9,711 bases of DNA from Nitrospinota bacterium (GTDB lineage: Bacteria > Tectomicrobia > Entotheonellia > J063), in the NCBI GenBank assembly GCA_003696125.1, contig RFHZ01000095.1, forward strand, positions 1 through 9,711. The letters are read 5' to 3'. The notes beneath the pieces were generated by a model. The model was given only the letters and a program-made list of their open reading frames with translations. It was not told where the DNA came from and ran no database searches. How positions within the stretch are numbered: the stretch's first letter is position 1; each line of letters begins with the position of its first letter. The position numbers and the translations under genes are program-made. Positions 1,276 to 9,711 of the stretch are shown one piece after another.

Positions 1276-2277
1276 GTGAAGAGAAGAGCTGTGGCTCTCC
1301 TTTCCGGGGGATTGGACAGCCTGCTGGCGGTGAAGATCATCATGGCGCAGGGGATCGAGGTGAGAGCACTCACCTGCATGACCCACTTCGGCTGTGATGG
1401 GCATAGCAGTTGTGGTCATGATCCGCGAGAGTTTGCCGACGACCTGGGGTTTCATGTCAAGCTGTACCACCTGGGAGAAGAGTACGTGGAGATGGTCAAG
1501 AAACCCCGCTTCGGGTACGGGAAGCACATGAACCCGTGTCTCGATTGTCGTCTGATGATGCTGGCCGCGGCCAGAGAATATATGGAGGCCATTGATGCCT
1601 CCTTTATCATCACCGGAGAGGTGGTGGGGCAGCGTCCCATGTCCCAGCGTCGCGATGCCCTGGCCATGATCGATCGCGAAAGCGGACTAAAGGGACTGAT
1701 CCTGCGTCCCCTCTCGGCCAAGCTCCTCCCTCCCACCATCCCTGAGATGGAAGGGATCGTTGATCGGGAGAAACTCTACGCCATCAAGGGACGTTCCCGC
1801 AAGGTGCAGATGGAGCTGGCCAAACAGTTCGGGATCACCAAGTATCCTTCTCCGGCCGGAGGATGCCTGTTGACCGATAGTCGCTACTCTGAGAAGCTGC
1901 GCGATCTCTTCCATTACGTGCCTGATGCCCGTGTGGAAGAGATCCATCTCCTCACCACCGGCCGGCATTTTCGGATCAGCGAGCAGTGCAAGATCATCGT
2001 GGGGAGAGATCAGGCGGAGAACGAGGTCCTCTCTCGCTACACCGGTATCTGTACCGCTTCCTGCGCCGTGACCGACTATCCCAGCCCGCTGACGCTGGTC
2101 TTTGGTCCCACCACGCCGGAGGAGCGCAAGCGTATCGCCGAGATCACCGCCCGGTACAGCAAGGCTCCCTGGATGGCCGAGGCGAGGGTAAGGTTTGTGT
2201 ATAGCACAGGGGAGAGCGAAGAACTGATCGTCAAGGCGGCCGTCGATGCGCAAACCCTCGATGCCCTGCGTATTTAA
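1276..2277 (+). CDS. PP-loop ATPase, ThiI/MnmA-like tRNA sulfurtransferase with C-terminal NFACT-like domain
   Basis: A cytoplasmic enzyme expected to adenylate a tRNA uridine and replace its oxygen with sulfur. SGGLDS at residues 10-15 is the ATP-binding PP-loop of the ThiI/MnmA/TtuA-type family. Cysteines 88 and 91 (NPCLDC) plus 197 (AGGCLLTD) match the CxxC-plus-one-Cys pattern that binds an iron-sulfur cluster in related thiolases. GEVVGQRPMSQRR (114-126) is another family block. The last 70 or so residues resemble the RNA-binding NFACT-R-type domain attached to short ThiI-like proteins. There is no N-terminal THUMP domain and no rhodanese domain, so it is shorter than classical ThiI. The start is GTG, chosen because GAGGAGG (1261-1267) sits 8 nt upstream and the PP-loop follows at the usual distance. 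It is the first gene of the operon, and its end overlaps the next gene by 32 bp. The class is fairly sure; the modified base (s4U8, s2U34 or other) is not. Confidence 0.85.
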   Translation: MKRRAVALLSGGLDSLLAVKIIMAQGIEVRALTCMTHFGCDGHSSCGHDPREFADDLGFHVKLYHLGEEYVEMVKKPRFGYGKHMNPCLDCRLMMLAAAREYMEAIDASFIITGEVVGQRPMSQRRDALAMIDRESGLKGLILRPLSAKLLPPTIPEMEGIVDREKLYAIKGRSRKVQMELAKQFGITKYPSPAGGCLLTDSRYSEKLRDLFHYVPDARVEEIHLLTTGRHFRISEQCKIIVGRDQAENEVLSRYTGICTASCAVTDYPSPLTLVFGPTTPEERKRIAEITARYSKAPWMAEARVRFVYSTGESEELIVKAAVDAQTLDALRI

Positions 2278-3844
2278 ATGGCTGATGCCCCTTAACATCC
2301 TCCTGCTCCTCTGGTTAGGGGCAGGAGGATGTACCTCCAACTCCCCACAAGCAGAGAATCGCCTGATCATCGGCCTGGAGAGTGCTCCCCTTTCCCTCGA
2401 TCCCCGTTATGCTCTTGATGCCGCTTCGTACCGGATTATTCAGCTCCTCTTTAACGGGCTGGTAAAGAAGGATCTCCATACCCGGCTCGTTCCGGATCTC
2501 GCCGAGCGGTGGGAGACGCCAAACGACACCACCTACGTCTTTCACCTGCGACCCGGAGTGAAGTTTCATGATGGAAGGGAACTGACGGCCGAGGATGTGG
2601 CTTTTACCTTCCGTTCCATCCTCGATCCGGCCACCAAATCTCCCAAGCGAGGCAGCTATACCACCATCCAGCGGATCGACGTCCTGGATCCCTATACGAT
2701 TCGTTTTGTGTTGAAAGAACCGTTTGCCCCTTTTCTCATCAACATGGTGACCGGCATTGTCCCCCGGCATGCTGCTGGAAAGGCCGGCTTTGCCCAGCAC
2801 CCGATCGGTACCGGGCCATTCCGCTTTTCCCGATGGGAGGGAGAATCCCGCATCGAGCTCAAGGCCAATGAGCACTATTTTGCGGGGAGACCCAAACTGG
2901 ATCGGCTGATCTACAAGATCATTCCGGATCAGACCGTTCGTGTGCTCGAGCTGGAGAAGGGGAGCATCGATTTCTTGCAGAACGATATCCCCCCTGACCT
3001 GCTTCCCCGTTTAGAGCAGAATCCGGCCTTACAGGTACGGAAAAAGGTGGGAACCAATTACTCGTATATCGGTTTCAACCTGCAGGATCCGATCCTGGGA
3101 AAGCGAAAGGTGCGGCAGGCCCTGGCTTATGCGATTAACCGTCCCGGAATCATTGCCCATATCCTGCAAGGACTCGCTCTGCCCGCATCGAGTATCTTTC
3201 CTCCTTCCCATTGGGCCTATGAACCCCGGGTCAAGACCTACCCGTACGATCCGGCCAAGGCCAGGGAGTTACTCGACGAGGCCGGCTATCCTGATCCGGA
3301 TGGAGAGGGACCGCTTCCCCGCTTCTCCCTGACCTATAAGACGAGCGAGAATGCCTTGCGGCGACGGATCGCGGAAGCGATCCAGGAAGATTTCAAGCGG
3401 ATCGGGGTAGAGATCAAGATCCGGAGTTTCGAGTGGGGTACCTTTTTTCATGATATCCAGCGCGGTAACTTTCAGCTCTATTCCCTGACCTGGGTCGGGG
3501 TGACCGATCCGGATATCTTCTACTACCTCTTTCACTCGCAAAGCGTTCCTCCCAATGGGGCCAACCGAGGGCGTTATCATAACCCGGTCGTTGACCGCCT
3601 GCTGGTGCAGGGGAGGCGTACCCTTGATCTCAAGCAACGGCAGGCCATCTATAGCATGGTGCAGAAGATCCTCTCCGAAGATGTGCCGTATATCAGCCTC
3701 TGGTTTTCCACCAATGTCGTGGTCATGAAGAAAGGGCTGCAGGGGTTTGTCCTCTATCCGGCTGGTGATCTGATTTCCTTAAAGGACGTCTATTGGGAGG
3801 GAGAGGAGGAACGGGCGGTCGCTTCCCCCCCTTCCGCCTCTTGA
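2246..3844 (+). CDS. ABC transporter substrate-binding lipoprotein, SBP family 5 (peptide/nickel type)
   Basis: The periplasmic ligand-capture component of a peptide-type ABC importer, 532 residues, normal for the family. Family 5 landmarks are clear: SLDPRYALD (50-58), DLAERWE then HLRPGVKFHDGREL (84-113) with TAEDV, HPIGTGPFRF (185-194), and VRQALAYAINR (299-309). The N-terminus has a lysine-containing n-region, a Leu-rich core and Cys29 after LGAGG, a loose lipobox, so it is probably a lipoprotein anchored to the membrane. ATG 2246 is preceded by AAGGCGG (2233-2239) at 6 nt. ATG 2261 would still keep Lys in the n-region, but no ribosome site is seen there. The start lies inside the upstream thiolase gene (32-bp overlap), implying translational coupling. 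The permease genes follow directly. Ligand is unknown: members bind oligopeptides, dipeptides, nickel, heme or sugars, and sequence alone does not decide. Confidence 0.93.
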   Translation: MRKPSMPCVFKWLMPLNILLLLWLGAGGCTSNSPQAENRLIIGLESAPLSLDPRYALDAASYRIIQLLFNGLVKKDLHTRLVPDLAERWETPNDTTYVFHLRPGVKFHDGRELTAEDVAFTFRSILDPATKSPKRGSYTTIQRIDVLDPYTIRFVLKEPFAPFLINMVTGIVPRHAAGKAGFAQHPIGTGPFRFSRWEGESRIELKANEHYFAGRPKLDRLIYKIIPDQTVRVLELEKGSIDFLQNDIPPDLLPRLEQNPALQVRKKVGTNYSYIGFNLQDPILGKRKVRQALAYAINRPGIIAHILQGLALPASSIFPPSHWAYEPRVKTYPYDPAKARELLDEAGYPDPDGEGPLPRFSLTYKTSENALRRRIAEAIQEDFKRIGVEIKIRSFEWGTFFHDIQRGNFQLYSLTWVGVTDPDIFYYLFHSQSVPPNGANRGRYHNPVVDRLLVQGRRTLDLKQRQAIYSMVQKILSEDVPYISLWFSTNVVVMKKGLQGFVLYPAGDLISLKDVYWEGEEERAVASPPSAS

Positions 3845-3859
3845 AGGAAGGCGACACCG

Positions 3860-4786
3860 ATGCGATCCTACATCATGAGACGGCTTTTGCTCCTCTTCCC
3901 GGTTGTCTGCGGTGTGGTCACCTTTGTTTTTTTGATCATTCATCTCATCCCGGGTGATCCGGTGGAGATCATGCTGGGAGAGCAGGCCCTGCCGGCAGAT
4001 AAAGCCGCCCTCCGCACGGCATTGGGACTGGATAAACCGGTCCTGATCCAGTATCTCCATTTTTGGTTCCGGCTGCTACAAGGTGATCTCGGCTCCTCCC
4101 TCTATTCGGGTCGGGCGGTGCTGGTCATGATCCTGGAGCGGGTACCGGCTACAGTAGAACTGACCCTGGGGGCACTGGGGGTTGCCATCGCTATCGCCCT
4201 GCCCCTGGGGATTGTGGCTGCCGTGCGCCGCTACTCGCTTTGGGACCATGGCTCCATGCTCATCGCCCTCCTGGGGGTCTCTATCCCCAATTTCTGGCTC
4301 GGACCCCTGCTCATCATCCTCTTCTCCCTGCAACTCGGATGGCTACCGGTAGCAGGCCGGGGAGGCATTGCCCACCTGATCTTGCCGGCGATCACCTTAG
4401 GAACCGCTTTGGCCGCCATCCTGACCCGCATGACCCGCTCTTGCCTCCTAGAGGTTTTAAATAAAGGGTATATTGTTGTGGCCCGGGCCAAAGGGGTACG
4501 GGAGAGTCTCGTTGTTGGCAAGCATGCGCTACGTAACAGCCTTATCCCCCTGATCACCACCGTCGGGTTACAGCTCGGTGCCCTCCTCTCCGGTTCGATC
4601 ATCACCGAGACGATCTTTGCCTGGCCCGGCCTGGGGCGTTTGACCATTCAGGCCATTCAACGCCGGGACTACCCGCTGGTGCAGGGATGTGTCCTCTTCA
4701 TCGCCCTGAGCTATGTCCTGGTAAACCTCCTCGTCGATCTGCTCTATGCCTATGTGGACCCACGGATCCGTTTTACCAAAGCATAA
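3860..4786 (+). CDS. DppB/OppB-type ABC transporter permease (first pair)
   Basis: An inner-membrane channel subunit of a peptide-type ABC importer, 308 residues, normal length. One N-terminal membrane segment (about 9-29) is followed by the HLIPGDP motif (28-34), an external region, then the BPD_transp_1 core from about residue 95 to 300. The EAA loop that docks on the ATPase reads VARAKGVRESLVVGKHALRN (207-226). TETIFAWPGLGRL (249-261) and the terminal DPRIRF are typical DppB endings. AAGGAAGG (3844-3851) sits 8 nt before ATG 3860, 15 nt behind the binding-protein stop. Its 3' end overlaps the next permease by 41 bp. It should pair with that DppC-type subunit and receive ligand from the upstream binding protein. 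No ATPase gene is present nearby. Confidence 0.94.
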   Translation: MRSYIMRRLLLLFPVVCGVVTFVFLIIHLIPGDPVEIMLGEQALPADKAALRTALGLDKPVLIQYLHFWFRLLQGDLGSSLYSGRAVLVMILERVPATVELTLGALGVAIAIALPLGIVAAVRRYSLWDHGSMLIALLGVSIPNFWLGPLLIILFSLQLGWLPVAGRGGIAHLILPAITLGTALAAILTRMTRSCLLEVLNKGYIVVARAKGVRESLVVGKHALRNSLIPLITTVGLQLGALLSGSIITETIFAWPGLGRLTIQAIQRRDYPLVQGCVLFIALSYVLVNLLVDLLYAYVDPRIRFTKA

Positions 4787-5576
4787 GGGGCTCTGGATAG
4801 GAGGAAGCCTCTGCCTGCTTCTCTTCCTCCTGGCCCTTTTGGCGCCCTGGATCGCCCCGTACAGCCCCACCGACCAGGAGCTCTCCCGCGGGTTGGAACC
4901 CCCTTCCCTGCAGCATCCCTTTGGCCTGGATAAACTGGGGAGAGACATCCTGAGCCGGGTCCTTTACGGGTCCCGCATCTCCCTGCAAGTTGGGCTGATC
5001 ACGGTCACCGTTGCCGGGATGGCCGGCGTGCTAATCGGGGCCGTGGCCGGGTATGGGGGAGGGATGCTGGATGAGGCTATCATGCGTATCGCCGATATCT
5101 TTCAGGCTTTCCCAGGCATATTGCTGGCCATCGCCCTGATGGCGGTCCTGGGGCCTAGCCTCCATAACGTGATCATCGCCCTTACCGTCATGGGCTGGGT
5201 CAGCTATGCCCGCCTGGTGAGAGGACAGATCCTCTTTTTACGGGAGGAGGAGTTTGTCCTGGCCGCCCAGGCGGCAGGAGCACCGTCCCGACGCATCGTG
5301 ATACGGCACCTCCTCCCTAACCTGGCCGCGCCTCTCATCGTGGAGGGGAGCTTTGGCATGGCCGGAGCCATCATCGCCGAAGCCGGACTCAGTTTTCTCG
5401 GTCTTGGGGTCCAGCCGCCCACTCCGAGCTGGGGGGCCATGCTCAACGAGGGACGCCCTTTCCTCCTGGTCGCCCCGCACCGCGCCCTCTTACCCGGCCT
5501 GGCCATCATGCTCACCGTCCTCGCCTTAAACATGCTAGGGGACGGGCTCAGGGATTGGCTTGATCCGGGGGCTTAG
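4746..5576 (+). CDS. DppC/OppC-type ABC transporter permease (first pair)
   Basis: The second channel subunit, 276 residues, near the short end for DppC. A first membrane segment (about 15-38) is followed by HPFGLDKLGRDILSR (57-71), the conserved N-terminal block of DppC proteins. The EAA loop is EFVLAAQAAGAPSRRIVIRH (169-188), and LSFLGLGVQPPTPSWGAML (215-233) and GDGLRDWLDP (265-274) close the domain. ATG 4746 lies inside the DppB-type gene (41-bp overlap). ATG 4752 is an in-frame alternative two codons later. No clear ribosome site precedes either, so translation is probably coupled. The N-terminus is short and lacks the basic cytoplasmic extension of the second DppC-type protein in the window. 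The last 29 bp overlap the end of the convergent cytochrome gene, and no terminator is visible. Confidence 0.92.
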   Translation: MPMWTHGSVLPKHKGLWIGGSLCLLLFLLALLAPWIAPYSPTDQELSRGLEPPSLQHPFGLDKLGRDILSRVLYGSRISLQVGLITVTVAGMAGVLIGAVAGYGGGMLDEAIMRIADIFQAFPGILLAIALMAVLGPSLHNVIIALTVMGWVSYARLVRGQILFLREEEFVLAAQAAGAPSRRIVIRHLLPNLAAPLIVEGSFGMAGAIIAEAGLSFLGLGVQPPTPSWGAMLNEGRPFLLVAPHRALLPGLAIMLTVLALNMLGDGLRDWLDPGA

Positions 5577-5943
5577 CCAGTTCCCTGGCCTCAAAACGCT
5601 TAAAGCGTCCCTGTTTCACCCACTGCGGCCAGCGGGTTCCGCGGTGAACCGTCTTGATCAACAGCCCCTCTTCTCGGATATAGTGGCAGACACGGCACTC
5701 CTGGGCCTGGGTATAAGGGGGCCGATCATAGAACTGCCGACTCCTTTCCAGGTGTTGGTCGGCAGAGAAACCGGCGTGTACATGGCACTCCAGGCAGTAG
5801 TCGTTGATGACCTTGTTTGCCTCTGCCGGAGGCAGATCTCCCTGAAAGGCCTGTTCTAAAACCGGTTTGGAGCAGGAGGAAAGGAGAATCCCGCCCAGGA
5901 GGGCCCAGCCTACCAGGGAGACAACAGAGGTGTTCATCTTCAT
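5548..5943 (-). CDS. Small diheme c-type cytochrome lipoprotein
   Basis: A predicted periplasmic electron carrier of about 131 residues, anchored by lipid. The N-terminus is a signal sequence ending in the lipobox LLSSC (Cys24). Two heme c attachment motifs follow, CLECH (50-54) and CRVCH (83-87). The mature part contains no methionine, so bis-histidine ligation is likely; candidate distal ligands are His56, His64 and His100. The C-terminal third is basic and Trp/Arg-rich. GGAGG (5951-5947) is 3 nt before ATG 5943 and 9 nt before ATG 5937. Spacing favours the second, while the lysine in MKMN favours the first. An in-frame ATG at 6000 would add 19 residues and overlap the permease gene, which is less likely. 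The gene sits 16 nt behind the DppC-type gene and overlaps the convergent permease gene by 29 bp. Its redox partner and role are unknown. Confidence 0.87.
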   Translation of the reverse strand: MKMNTSVVSLVGWALLGGILLSSCSKPVLEQAFQGDLPPAEANKVINDYCLECHVHAGFSADQHLERSRQFYDRPPYTQAQECRVCHYIREEGLLIKTVHRGTRWPQWVKQGRFKRFEARELAKPPDQANP

Positions 5944-5959
5944 CGGCCTCCACAGGGTT

Positions 5960-6874
5960 TTATACATCGAGATGCGGATCGAGGAAATCGCGTAGCCCAT
6001 CCCCTAACAGGTTGATGCCCAGGGTCGTGATAAAGATGGCCAGCCCCGGGAAAGCGGCCAACCACCAGCGTCCCAACATATAGACCCGCCCCTCACTCAA
6101 CATCCCTCCCCAGGAAGGGGTAGGAGGCTGCACGCCGAGTCCCAGAAAGCTGAGCACCGCCTCCCGCAGGATGGTCCGGGCCACTTCTATGCTGGCCAGG
6201 ACGAGCAGAGAGTTGAGCAGATTGGGGAAGATATGTCGCAGGATGATGCGAAGATCGCTGCAGCCGAGTCCTTTAGCCGCCTGCACGAATTCTCGTTCGC
6301 GAAAGCTGAGCACCTCGGAGCGGGCCACCCGGGTATATACCGGCCAGGTGGTGATACCGAGGACGATGATCATGTTGCGCAGGCTCGGTCCTAAGATGGC
6401 GATGACGGCCAGGGCCAAAAGGATAAAGGGAAAGGCCATCATGATGTTGACCAGATTGGTGACCAGCGTGTCGATAAAGCGTCCATAGTACCCGGCGACC
6501 ACGCCCAGGGTGACCCCGATACAGAGGGCAATGACAACAGCCACCGTCCCGGTGATCATAGAAATACGTGCCCCGTAGATGATACGGCTGAGATAATCCC
6601 TCCCTACCTGATCGGTCCCCAGCAGGAACTCCATTCTCCCCCCATCTTCCCAGGCCGGTGGGAGCAGACGGGTGGCGATACTCTGCTTGTACGGGTCGTG
6701 AGGGGCAAAGGTGGCAGGGGTGATCGCCAGTATCACCGCTACCAGGACAATGGCCAGACCTACCAGTCCTTTCTTCACACGCCACAACCGGCGCCAGAGC
6801 TTGCGTTTAGGCGTGAGCCGGGACTCAGCCAGCTCTGCCCAGACCTTATCAGGAGATGAAGTGTTCTTAATCAT
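5960..6874 (-). CDS. DppC/OppC-type ABC transporter permease (second pair)
   Basis: A membrane channel subunit of a second peptide-type importer, 304 residues, typical for DppC. It has a basic cytoplasmic N-terminus (about 20-36, rich in Lys and Arg) before the first membrane segment (about 37-56). Conserved blocks are LLGTDQVGRDYLSRIIYGAR (84-103), the EAA loop EFVQAAKGLGCSDLRIILRH (195-214), LSFLGLGVQPPTPSWGGML (241-259) and GDGLRDFLDP (291-300). The start ATG 6874 overlaps the DppB-type stop in an ATGATTAA arrangement (8 bp), with no clear ribosome site of its own, so translation is probably coupled. It is related to, but clearly diverged from, the DppC-type protein on the other strand, so this is not a recent duplication. 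The cytochrome lipoprotein gene follows after 16 nt. Confidence 0.94.
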   Translation of the reverse strand: MIKNTSSPDKVWAELAESRLTPKRKLWRRLWRVKKGLVGLAIVLVAVILAITPATFAPHDPYKQSIATRLLPPAWEDGGRMEFLLGTDQVGRDYLSRIIYGARISMITGTVAVVIALCIGVTLGVVAGYYGRFIDTLVTNLVNIMMAFPFILLALAVIAILGPSLRNMIIVLGITTWPVYTRVARSEVLSFREREFVQAAKGLGCSDLRIILRHIFPNLLNSLLVLASIEVARTILREAVLSFLGLGVQPPTPSWGGMLSEGRVYMLGRWWLAAFPGLAIFITTLGINLLGDGLRDFLDPHLDV

Positions 6875-7784
6875 ACCGGATTCTCGGATCGAGGAGTCCT
6901 ACTGCAATATCGGCAAACAGGTTGGCAAAGACGATAAAGAAGGCGAAGATGATGACCGCTGCCTGTACCACCGGAAAGTCGTAGTTGCGAATCGAGGTCA
7001 CGGCCAGGCTCGCCACTCCAGGCCAGGCAAAGACCGTCTCCGTTACCACCGCTCCGCCCAGGAGGGTGCCGAGCTGCATACCGAGGATGGTGACCACCGG
7101 GATACAGGCGTTACGCAAGGCATGCTTGTACAGGACCAGACTCTCCCGGAGTCCCTTGGATCGGGCCGTCTTGATATATTCCTGTCCCAGCACCTCGAGC
7201 ATGCCGGAACGGGTAAGGCGCATGGTTAAGGGGGCCAGGTACCAGCCCAGGGTGATGGCCGGGAGGACAAGATGGGCAGGGGTTCCCCGTCCCGAGACCG
7301 GAAACCAGTGCAGCTTGACGCCGAAGACGATGATCATCATGATGCCGAGCCAGAAGACAGGCATGGCCTGCCCGGTGATGGCAAAGACACTGGCAAAGCT
7401 GTCCAGGAGAGAGTTGCGCTTAACTGCAGCGGCAATCCCGAGGGGAATCGAGACCACGATCGTGACAAGCAGGCCGGCAACAGCCAGTTCGATCGTGGCC
7501 GGCATCCGCTCAAGGATCAGAGAGGAGGCAGATTGTTTCACAAAGAAAGAATCACCGAAATCCCCATGCAGGATGTTCTTGAGAAAACGGCCATACTGGA
7601 CGATATACGGATCATTTAATCCCAACTCTTCTCGCAGCACCGCCACATCTTCTGCTGTCGCTTCTGGCGGGAGCAGGAGCAGGGCCGGGTCACCCGTCAC
7701 ATTGAGGAGGAGGAAGGTGATGATGGAGACACCAAAGCAGACGATGAGCGATTGCAATGCCCGACGAATGATATAGACTCGCAT
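6867..7784 (-). CDS. DppB/OppB-type ABC transporter permease (second pair)
   Basis: The first gene of the minus-strand operon and a channel subunit of 305 residues. One N-terminal membrane segment (about 9-28) is followed by NVTGDPA (28-34), an external stretch, and the BPD_transp_1 core. The EAA loop reads YIKTARSKGLRESLVLYKHA (203-222). TETVFAWPGVASL (248-260) and LLDPRIRYD at the C-terminus are DppB-like. ATG 7784 was chosen because MRVYIIRR aligns with MRSYIMRR in the other DppB-type protein. AAAGGG (7798-7793) lies 8 nt upstream, with GAGAGG directly adjacent to the start. No binding-protein or ATPase gene accompanies this pair in the window. The pair may share the binding protein of the convergent operon or use one encoded elsewhere. 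Confidence 0.94.
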   Translation of the reverse strand: MRVYIIRRALQSLIVCFGVSIITFLLLNVTGDPALLLLPPEATAEDVAVLREELGLNDPYIVQYGRFLKNILHGDFGDSFFVKQSASSLILERMPATIELAVAGLLVTIVVSIPLGIAAAVKRNSLLDSFASVFAITGQAMPVFWLGIMMIIVFGVKLHWFPVSGRGTPAHLVLPAITLGWYLAPLTMRLTRSGMLEVLGQEYIKTARSKGLRESLVLYKHALRNACIPVVTILGMQLGTLLGGAVVTETVFAWPGVASLAVTSIRNYDFPVVQAAVIIFAFFIVFANLFADIAVGLLDPRIRYD

Positions 7785-7925
7785 CCTCTCTACCCTTTAC
7801 CTCCCCTACGCTCTTCCTCGGCCTCGAGTTTACAAAACCGCTCTCCTTTGCCCCCGGATTCCTTGTGGGTCCTTCTGGGGTAAGATGAACAGGCAGGGAG
7901 AAACTCATGAGTATGATCTTAGTAG

Positions 7926-7954
7926 CATATACCAGGCTTTTCCTTTGCTGTCAA
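7926..7954 (-). promoter_or_regulatory. Sigma-70-type promoter of the minus-strand permease/cytochrome operon
   Basis: On the minus strand a consensus TTGACA (7954-7949) is followed after 17 nt by TATATG (7931-7926), preceded by TGG, an extended -10. Initiation near 7919 would give a leader of about 135 nt before ATG 7784. No terminator hairpin or known riboswitch was recognised in that leader. Confidence 0.6.
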
Positions 7955-8130
7955 GCCCTAATCCGATACATGCCCTCACTCCCCACGTCCCTCTCTAGAA
8001 GGGATGGAGACTCTCTATAAGCCCTCTTTGCTTCACACCCGGGTTGAAAAATTGTCCGTGCTTCCCCGGGGCTAGTGTGATAAGGTAATAGGGACAGTGG
8101 GAATAGCAGAGATGGTGTACAGAAGCGAGA

Positions 8131-8138
8131 GGAGGAGG
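8131..8138 (+). promoter_or_regulatory. Ribosome binding site that decides the oxidoreductase start
   Basis: GGAGGAGG ends 3 nt before ATG 8142, and its first GGAGG is 6 nt from it. It lies downstream of the alternative in-frame ATG 8112, so it can only serve 8142. The protein then begins MYGYTGK, as is usual in the family. Confidence 0.7.
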
Positions 8139-8141
8139 CTC

Positions 8142-9711
8142 ATGTACGGCTATACGGGGAAAATCCTTTTTGTCGATTTAAGCACCGGTCAAAGCCGGGT
8201 GGAACGTTTCGACGAAACCTTTGCTCGCCAGTACCTGGGAGGAAACGGGTTTGCGGCAAAGATCCTCTGCGAGCACCTGGTCCCGGGTATAGATCCCTTG
8301 TCGCCGGAGAATATGCTGGTCTTGGCCGTGGGACCGGTAACCGATACGCTCATCCAGAGCAACTGTCGAGGCTATATCGCTACCAAATCTCCTCTCACCG
8401 GACTTTATTCCGATTCGACCTTTGGGGGACGTTTTGCCGCCATGCAGAAACGGACCGGGTTTGAAGCGATTGTGGTGACCGGTAAGGCTCCGCAACCTTC
8501 CTATCTCCTGGTCACAGAGGAGGGGGCTGAGATCAAACCGGCTGGAAGCGCCTGGGGACAGCTCACCCTGGAGGCGATCGAGACGATCCGCTCCCGGGAA
8601 GGGATAAAGGATCTCGATGTGCTGGCGATCGGGCCGGCCGGAGAGCATCTGGTCCGTTTCGCCTGTGCGGTGCACGCCTTCCAGAGCCGGGATGCCATCG
8701 CTGGCCGGGGAGGGATCGGCGCGGTCATGGGCTCCAAGAATCTGAAGGGCATTGCGGTACGGGGCAACATCAAAACAGAGGTGGCTTCGCTGGCCGCCGT
8801 GAAGACGGTGGTCCGGGAGAACAGCGAGCAGGTCAAGGTGGGCACCAAGGGCCTGGCAGAGTTTGGCACCCCGATTCTCGTGCAACCGATCAATACGATG
8901 GGACTGCTGGGGACGAGAAATGTCCAGCAGGAGGTGTTTGCACAGGCCCAGGCCATCAGTGGAGAGCGACTCAAGGATCTCTTCTGGGAGCGGGATACCA
9001 CCTGTTTTCGTTGCAGCATCGCCTGTGGCAAAGACTTTCGCGTCGACGAAGGGGAATTTGCCGGGATCAGGGCCAAAATGCCAGAGTACGAAACCCTCTT
9101 CGCCTTTGGCTCTATGGCCGACGTGGATGAGCCGGCAGCGATTATCAAGGCCAACAAACTCTGCGACGAGCTGGGCCTGGATACGATCAGCATGGGAGTG
9201 ACCCTTACCTTTGTCATGGAGTGTGTGGAGAAGGGATTGCTCTCCACCCAGGAGATCGGCAGGGAGCTTACCTTTGGAAACTACCATGCCATGCTCGACC
9301 TGATCGAAGCCACTGCCCGGCGGGAGGGCTTTGGAAACCTGCTGGCCGAAGGATCGGCCAGATTGGCTGACCATATCGGGAAGGAGGCTTCCCGTTTCCT
9401 CTATGCGGTGAAACGACTGGAGCTGCCAGCGCATTCGGCACGTGGCTTGAAGGGGATGAGTATCGGGTATGCCACCGCCACCCGTGGTGGGAGTCACCAC
9501 GACACCCGGCCTACCCTGCAATACGATCCGAATTTCGACCGCAAGAGCATCGAGGGAAAACCGGCTTTTGCCATCCGGACGCAAAACTTCACGGCCGTGG
9601 ACGATTCGCTGACCCAGTGTCGCTTCACCAGCGAGCGGGGGTTTGGCGGGATGCTCAACGAGAAGTACGCCCAGATGATCAATACGGTCACCGGCTGGAA
9701 CCTCTCAGTAG
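8142..9711 (+). CDS. aor: Aldehyde:ferredoxin oxidoreductase family protein, 3' end outside window
   Basis: Tungsten (or molybdenum) bis-pterin enzyme of the AOR family, which oxidises aldehydes to acids with ferredoxin, or reduces acids in reverse, in the cytoplasm. 523 codons are visible and open at the edge; family members usually have about 600. The N-terminal domain has MYGYTGKILFVDLSTG (1-16), YLGGNGFAAK (31-40), Arg76 within SNCRGY, FGGRFA and AGRGG (187-191). Iron-sulfur ligands are Cys288, Cys291 and Cys295 (CFRCSIAC) plus Cys493 in DSLTQC. The first three carry the same numbers as I recall for Pyrococcus furiosus AOR. The two pterin-binding motifs of DxxGL type are DELGLD (342-347) and the D488-C493 segment, which has LTQ instead of the usual xGL. 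All cofactor residues appear intact. It is divergent to the permease operon with its own leader. Substrate cannot be told from sequence. Confidence 0.92.
   Translation, partial: MYGYTGKILFVDLSTGQSRVERFDETFARQYLGGNGFAAKILCEHLVPGIDPLSPENMLVLAVGPVTDTLIQSNCRGYIATKSPLTGLYSDSTFGGRFAAMQKRTGFEAIVVTGKAPQPSYLLVTEEGAEIKPAGSAWGQLTLEAIETIRSREGIKDLDVLAIGPAGEHLVRFACAVHAFQSRDAIAGRGGIGAVMGSKNLKGIAVRGNIKTEVASLAAVKTVVRENSEQVKVGTKGLAEFGTPILVQPINTMGLLGTRNVQQEVFAQAQAISGERLKDLFWERDTTCFRCSIACGKDFRVDEGEFAGIRAKMPEYETLFAFGSMADVDEPAAIIKANKLCDELGLDTISMGVTLTFVMECVEKGLLSTQEIGRELTFGNYHAMLDLIEATARREGFGNLLAEGSARLADHIGKEASRFLYAVKRLELPAHSARGLKGMSIGYATATRGGSHHDTRPTLQYDPNFDRKSIEGKPAFAIRTQNFTAVDDSLTQCRFTSERGFGGMLNEKYAQMINTVTGWNLSV

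Follow-up and report, generated by a model that had tools for sequence, protein, structure and literature searches.

The diheme cytochrome c lipoprotein encoded in the window (the whole stretch of 9,711 bases that was analysed) is, in the reading that we hold to be moderately probable, an electron carrier of the cell envelope whose function does not depend on import; it would lie beside a cell-wall-peptide importer through ancient gene order, and its tie to the same-strand permease pair dppB2-dppC2 would be incidental. The nearest same-strand gene, dppC2, is the wrong partner for inferring the role of the cytochrome, while a convergent partner that is conserved in three phyla provides a concrete lead. 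The features concerned are as follows.

2246-3844, plus strand: SBP_bac_5 lipoprotein, the substrate-binding protein (SBP) of the cassette (Pfam PF00496, 4.5e-106)
3860-4786, plus strand: dppB1, DppB-type permease (Pfam match)
4746-5576, plus strand: dppC1, DppC-type permease, whose last 29 nt overlap the 3' end of the cytochrome gene
5548-5576: tail-to-tail overlap of 29 nt between dppC1 (plus) and the cytochrome gene (minus)
5548-5943, minus strand: diheme c-type cytochrome lipoprotein of 131 aa (lipobox Cys24, C50xxC53H54, C83xxC86H87)
5960-6874, minus strand: dppC2, DppC/OppC-type permease (Pfam BPD_transp_1 and OppC_N)
6867-7784, minus strand: dppB2, DppB-type permease, sharing 8 nt with dppC2

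The preliminary description had recognized the cytochrome by two CxxCH motifs, a lipobox and a mature part without methionine, and all of these were borne out by the sequence (heme motifs CLECH and CRVCH, lipobox LLSSC). The best start is the ATG at 5943, which is preceded by GGAGG, and a start at either of two alternative ATGs in frame, 5967 or 6000, would bring the gene into overlap with dppC2. Open reading frames combining a lipobox, two CxxCH motifs and a methionine-free mature part occurred once in the window, against a mean of 0.0 in 300 codon-shuffled copies. Assignment to the lipoproteins is based on Cys24 of the LLSSC lipobox, invariant in both alignments A1 and A2, with signal and lipobox judged by eye, and assignment to the c-type cytochromes on the two CxxCH motifs behind the lipoprotein signal, sequence motifs that were followed through 26 aligned members. 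Across these 26 members of A2 the heme-binding Cys and His residues and the lipid-anchor Cys are invariant, as is His56, two residues past the first CxxCH (26/26), and His64 is kept in at least 90%. His56 and His64 are therefore likely distal heme ligands, and the cytochrome is probably bis-His; we infer heme attachment, His ligation and the electron-carrier role from these sequence patterns. An AlphaFold model built from two sequences reached a mean pLDDT of 55.8, too low for further use.

Directly behind a peptide-type permease pair on its own strand, at a spacing of 16 nt, is where the preliminary description had placed the cytochrome gene, and both the arrangement (dppC2 stop codon TAA at 5962-5960, gap at 5944-5959) and the DppB/DppC types were confirmed, by coordinates and family profiles, respectively. 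A promoter common to dppB2, dppC2 and the cytochrome gene, as also proposed there, found no backing in a promoter scan, which detected no minus-strand sigma-70-like site in 5400-8200. Neither an SBP nor an ATPase gene could be found near dppB2. Since the spacing is only 16 nt, read-through from dppC2 into the cytochrome gene is likely in the window organism. An aldehyde:ferredoxin oxidoreductase gene (8097-9711), divergent from dppB2, is cut by the contig end.

Neighbourhoods were compared at 60 cytochrome loci, one per genome, 2 of which leave less than 250 bases of sequence ahead of the heme motifs and are uninformative for the same-strand upstream gene. A DppB/DppC gene upstream on the cytochrome's strand was present at 1/60 loci, that of the window only, so that a conserved same-strand operon of dppB2, dppC2 and the cytochrome gene was rejected. 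In all four relatives from the window's phylum this place is taken by a tRNA-Gly (CCC) gene, directly upstream and on the same strand; no tRNA or Rfam element was found in the window. The tRNA genes are located at L007:2556-2628, L008:9785-9858, L009:9756-9830 and L010:9673-9747. That dppB2, dppC2 and the cytochrome gene form a true, new operon with a joint function in the window's lineage would agree with the common strand, the 16-nt gap and the good ribosome-binding site, but it is very unlikely given that this order occurs at one locus among 60, and that the junction was observed in the window's genome alone, on a contig (C299) that the 9.7-kb window makes up entirely, in an assembly of 990 contigs with 8% contamination, where a local rearrangement or misassembly is possible. 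The best reading of the placement behind dppC2 is an incidental local rearrangement, and the preliminary description's alternative that the pairing is incidental fits the comparison well.

The cytochrome gene instead faces, on the opposite strand, a cassette of SBP, dppB1 and dppC1 (2246-5576, plus strand), which was absent from the preliminary description. Like the DppABCDF and OppABCDF importers, this cassette contains an SBP_bac_5 protein with DppB and DppC permeases, all of them far above the Pfam cut-off; unlike them, it has no ATPase genes, as neither of the two oligo_HPY ATPases expected in the cassette operon could be found in the window, and DppD/F-type ATPases are encoded elsewhere. 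The window's own genome has 19 PF08352 matches outside the window, and PF08352 ATPases were found outside the cassette in 17/17 genomes tested, among which G077 has a single pair. Together with the dacB, nagZ or recJ genes beside relatives of the cassette, this suggests a cell-wall-peptide importer that draws on ATPases encoded elsewhere. The nearest solved relatives of the SBP are of the AppA/DppA type, and the protein is related alike to heme-binding and dipeptide-binding proteins. Its start is overlapped by the end of a gene for a ThiI-like/NFACT-R_2 protein (1276-2277), which scores below all NCBIfam cut-offs. Single dispersed DppD/DppF-type genes were also seen in G208, G338, G067 and G473.

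Repeated co-occurrence of the cytochrome with DppB/DppC genes had been set beforehand as the test of a unit, and the expectation failed for the same-strand order and held for the opposite-strand set, since at 20/60 loci, in three phyla, a dppC1 orthologue converges on the cytochrome gene. These carriers comprise the window and G001, G077 and G218 (both carriers of their phylum), and all carriers (16/16) of the G141 phylum. The dppB/dppC orthologues beside the cytochromes are mostly 57-75% identical to the window's permeases, and the SBP orthologues 47-60% identical to its SBP. The 3' ends of dppC and the cytochrome gene share 13 nt in 12 genomes, 7 nt in one and 29 nt in the window, and are separated by 15-16 nt in G077 and G218 and by 84-300 nt in three genomes; the cytochrome gene of G001 (L007:2636-3487) has no stop before the opposite-strand dppC, its frame continuing for 519 nt through that gene. 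The dppC1/cytochrome pair is a rare case of a tail-to-tail order preserved across long distances.

The wider order reads recJ<- dacB<- ->SBP->dppB->dppC-> <-cytochrome, which would represent the ancestral neighbourhood; in the window, dacB, nagZ and recJ do not adjoin the cassette. In G002-G004, which belong to the window's phylum, the cytochrome gene immediately precedes recJ and the cassette is missing from between the two; among the best three candidates scored per genome, none was a close SBP. Because the cassette is present at this place in G001 and in two other phyla, its loss from beside the cytochrome gene in G002-G004 is the simpler reading. The cassette itself occurs in many genomes without the cytochrome, and is unlinked from it in G067, G208 and G338. 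Genomes with the cytochrome contain an SBP orthologue more often than those without it (9/17 vs 32/369, Fisher p = 9e-6, with genomes counted as independent despite their relatedness). In the SBP tree, the proteins of the window and G001 are not sisters and the deep forks are weak, so that one and several origins of the linkage both fit. Four loci (L099, L100, L101 and L105) contain close SBP relatives of 50-60% identity with no dppB/dppC in the fetched stretch, that is, solo binding proteins.

Cell-wall-derived peptides are most likely the substrate of the cassette, a suggestion based on dacB and nagZ neighbours, on the locus of G208 and on the precedent of YejBEF-YepA. A dacB gene (Peptidase_S13) is divergent from the SBP gene at many loci, and where relatives of the cassette occur in the absence of the cytochrome, dacB flanks them on one side and dppC is followed by a GH3/nagZ-type gene (the latter at L111, L121 and L129). 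At the G208 locus (L186:1108-5236), a DppF-type ATPase gene overlaps dacB and is followed by recJ. YejBEF-YepA of Agrobacterium is a peptide-type ABC importer of muropeptides serving peptidoglycan recycling (PMC9790009), whose SBP, YepA, is likewise encoded apart from the core transporter, and MppA is a murein tripeptide-binding protein (PMC6022919). Both systems share with the proposed cassette role the peptide-type ABC import for peptidoglycan recycling, a likeness that is founded on the dacB and nagZ neighbours.

Assignment of the cytochrome to a known Pfam or NCBIfam family was ruled out, with all scores under the cut-offs; against the Pfam gathering cut-offs, it reached 18.5 vs 25 bits for PF14537 and 15.1 vs 24.8 bits for PF14522. 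A profile search of solved structures returned no clear relative (best E 0.16), and a search for plasmid homologues returned none. It resembles Cytochrom_c3_2, Cytochrome_C7 and MtrC-MtrF domain II-IV (PF14537, PF14522, PF22113) in its CxxCH motifs with extra His residues and in weak profile similarity, but differs from them by having only two hemes, a lipid anchor and its own conserved motif NxxI..YCxxCHxHxxF. Members were found in 93 different genomes, with one copy in each carrier. The cytochrome is present in 5/5 genomes of the window's phylum, in 2/3 of the phylum of G077 and G218, in 16/18 of the phylum of G141 (11/11 of the good ones), in 65/77 of the class of G009 (30/31 of good quality) and in 17/386 genomes sampled across the domain, counts in which many of the genomes are incomplete MAGs. 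The class of G009 probably corresponds to Nitrospinia, since its member G394 shares an identical cytochrome sequence with L002, labelled 'Nitrospinia bacterium'. The closest relative of the window's cytochrome, at 60% identity, is in G035, on a short contig without a dpp gene, and the cytochrome tree is weakly supported. Judged by its sequences, this is an uncharacterised and unnamed family of single-copy diheme lipoproteins that is conserved across several phyla which have received little study; it is near-universal in the good genomes of several lineages, the Nitrospinia-like class included, yet matches no Pfam or NCBIfam cut-off.

It is conceivable that the cytochrome and the importer facing it work together as a module, for example to take up a heme-related or redox-active ligand, with expression coupled via overlapping transcript 3' ends. 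The convergent order in three phyla, the 13-nt overlaps and the higher frequency of the SBP among cytochrome carriers would be in accordance with such a module, as would the use of heme by Dpp-type importers in Haemophilus and Mycobacterium (PMC2738685, PMC6751184). Nevertheless, G002-G004 and the Nitrospinia-like loci have the cytochrome but not the cassette, many genomes have the cassette without the cytochrome, and the two are unlinked in three of the genomes named above, so that we regard a common module as unlikely. The shared function of cytochrome and importer that the preliminary description had considered was not established, most carriers having no linkage and G002-G004 keeping the cytochrome alone, and its heme-related ligand gained no positive evidence; the genes around the conserved cassette hint at peptides from the cell wall instead.

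A further possibility is that the cytochrome serves the upkeep of the cell envelope or of peptidoglycan, with genes for a lytic transglycosylase and a FimV/SPOR protein beside its own in one lineage and the importer opposite in others. In the Nitrospinia-like class, the cytochrome gene follows the lytic transglycosylase gene slt on the same strand at 31/32 loci, and a FimV/SPOR protein gene lies downstream at 25/32, which together with dacB and nagZ around the importer would speak for such a role. On the other hand, the neighbours in other lineages are recJ, rlmN, gatB or tonB-like genes (rlmN, gatB and tonB being identified by eye), genes for the cell wall are common anyway, and the literature search turned up no diheme cytochrome role in peptidoglycan turnover. 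The link of the cytochrome to the cell wall is thus possible but weak, and that cell-envelope maintenance is its task seems quite improbable; we give equally small credence to the broader proposition that this unnamed family, conserved in several little-studied phyla, takes part in peptidoglycan turnover or recycling. If true, periplasmic electron flow would be tied to cell-wall maintenance.

The reading of an independent electron carrier brings these observations together. The single-copy diheme lipoprotein would carry electrons on the periplasmic side of a membrane, and because G002-G004 and the Nitrospinia-like loci keep it without the cassette, its work would need no importer. The SBP-dppB-dppC cassette would act as an ABC importer borrowing DppD/DppF-type ATPases encoded elsewhere, and the placement of the cytochrome gene behind dppB2 and dppC2 would stem from a local rearrangement. 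What holds the tails together would be old gene order, with at most a coupling of the 3' ends of both transcripts, rather than one machine. Several points count against this reading, namely the near-fixed tail-to-tail spacing over three phyla, which is unusual for unrelated genes, the enrichment of SBP orthologues among cytochrome carriers, the ability of Dpp-type importers in other bacteria to carry heme (PMC2738685, PMC6751184), by which a heme link stays conceivable, and the absence of dacB, nagZ and recJ from beside the cassette in the window. In the phylum of G141 (L034, L156-L170), the cytochrome C-terminus forms a conserved basic-aromatic tail, K/R-W-Y-F-[FL]-[YW]-L-[FY], which is kept even where dppC does not overlap and is therefore probably under selection.
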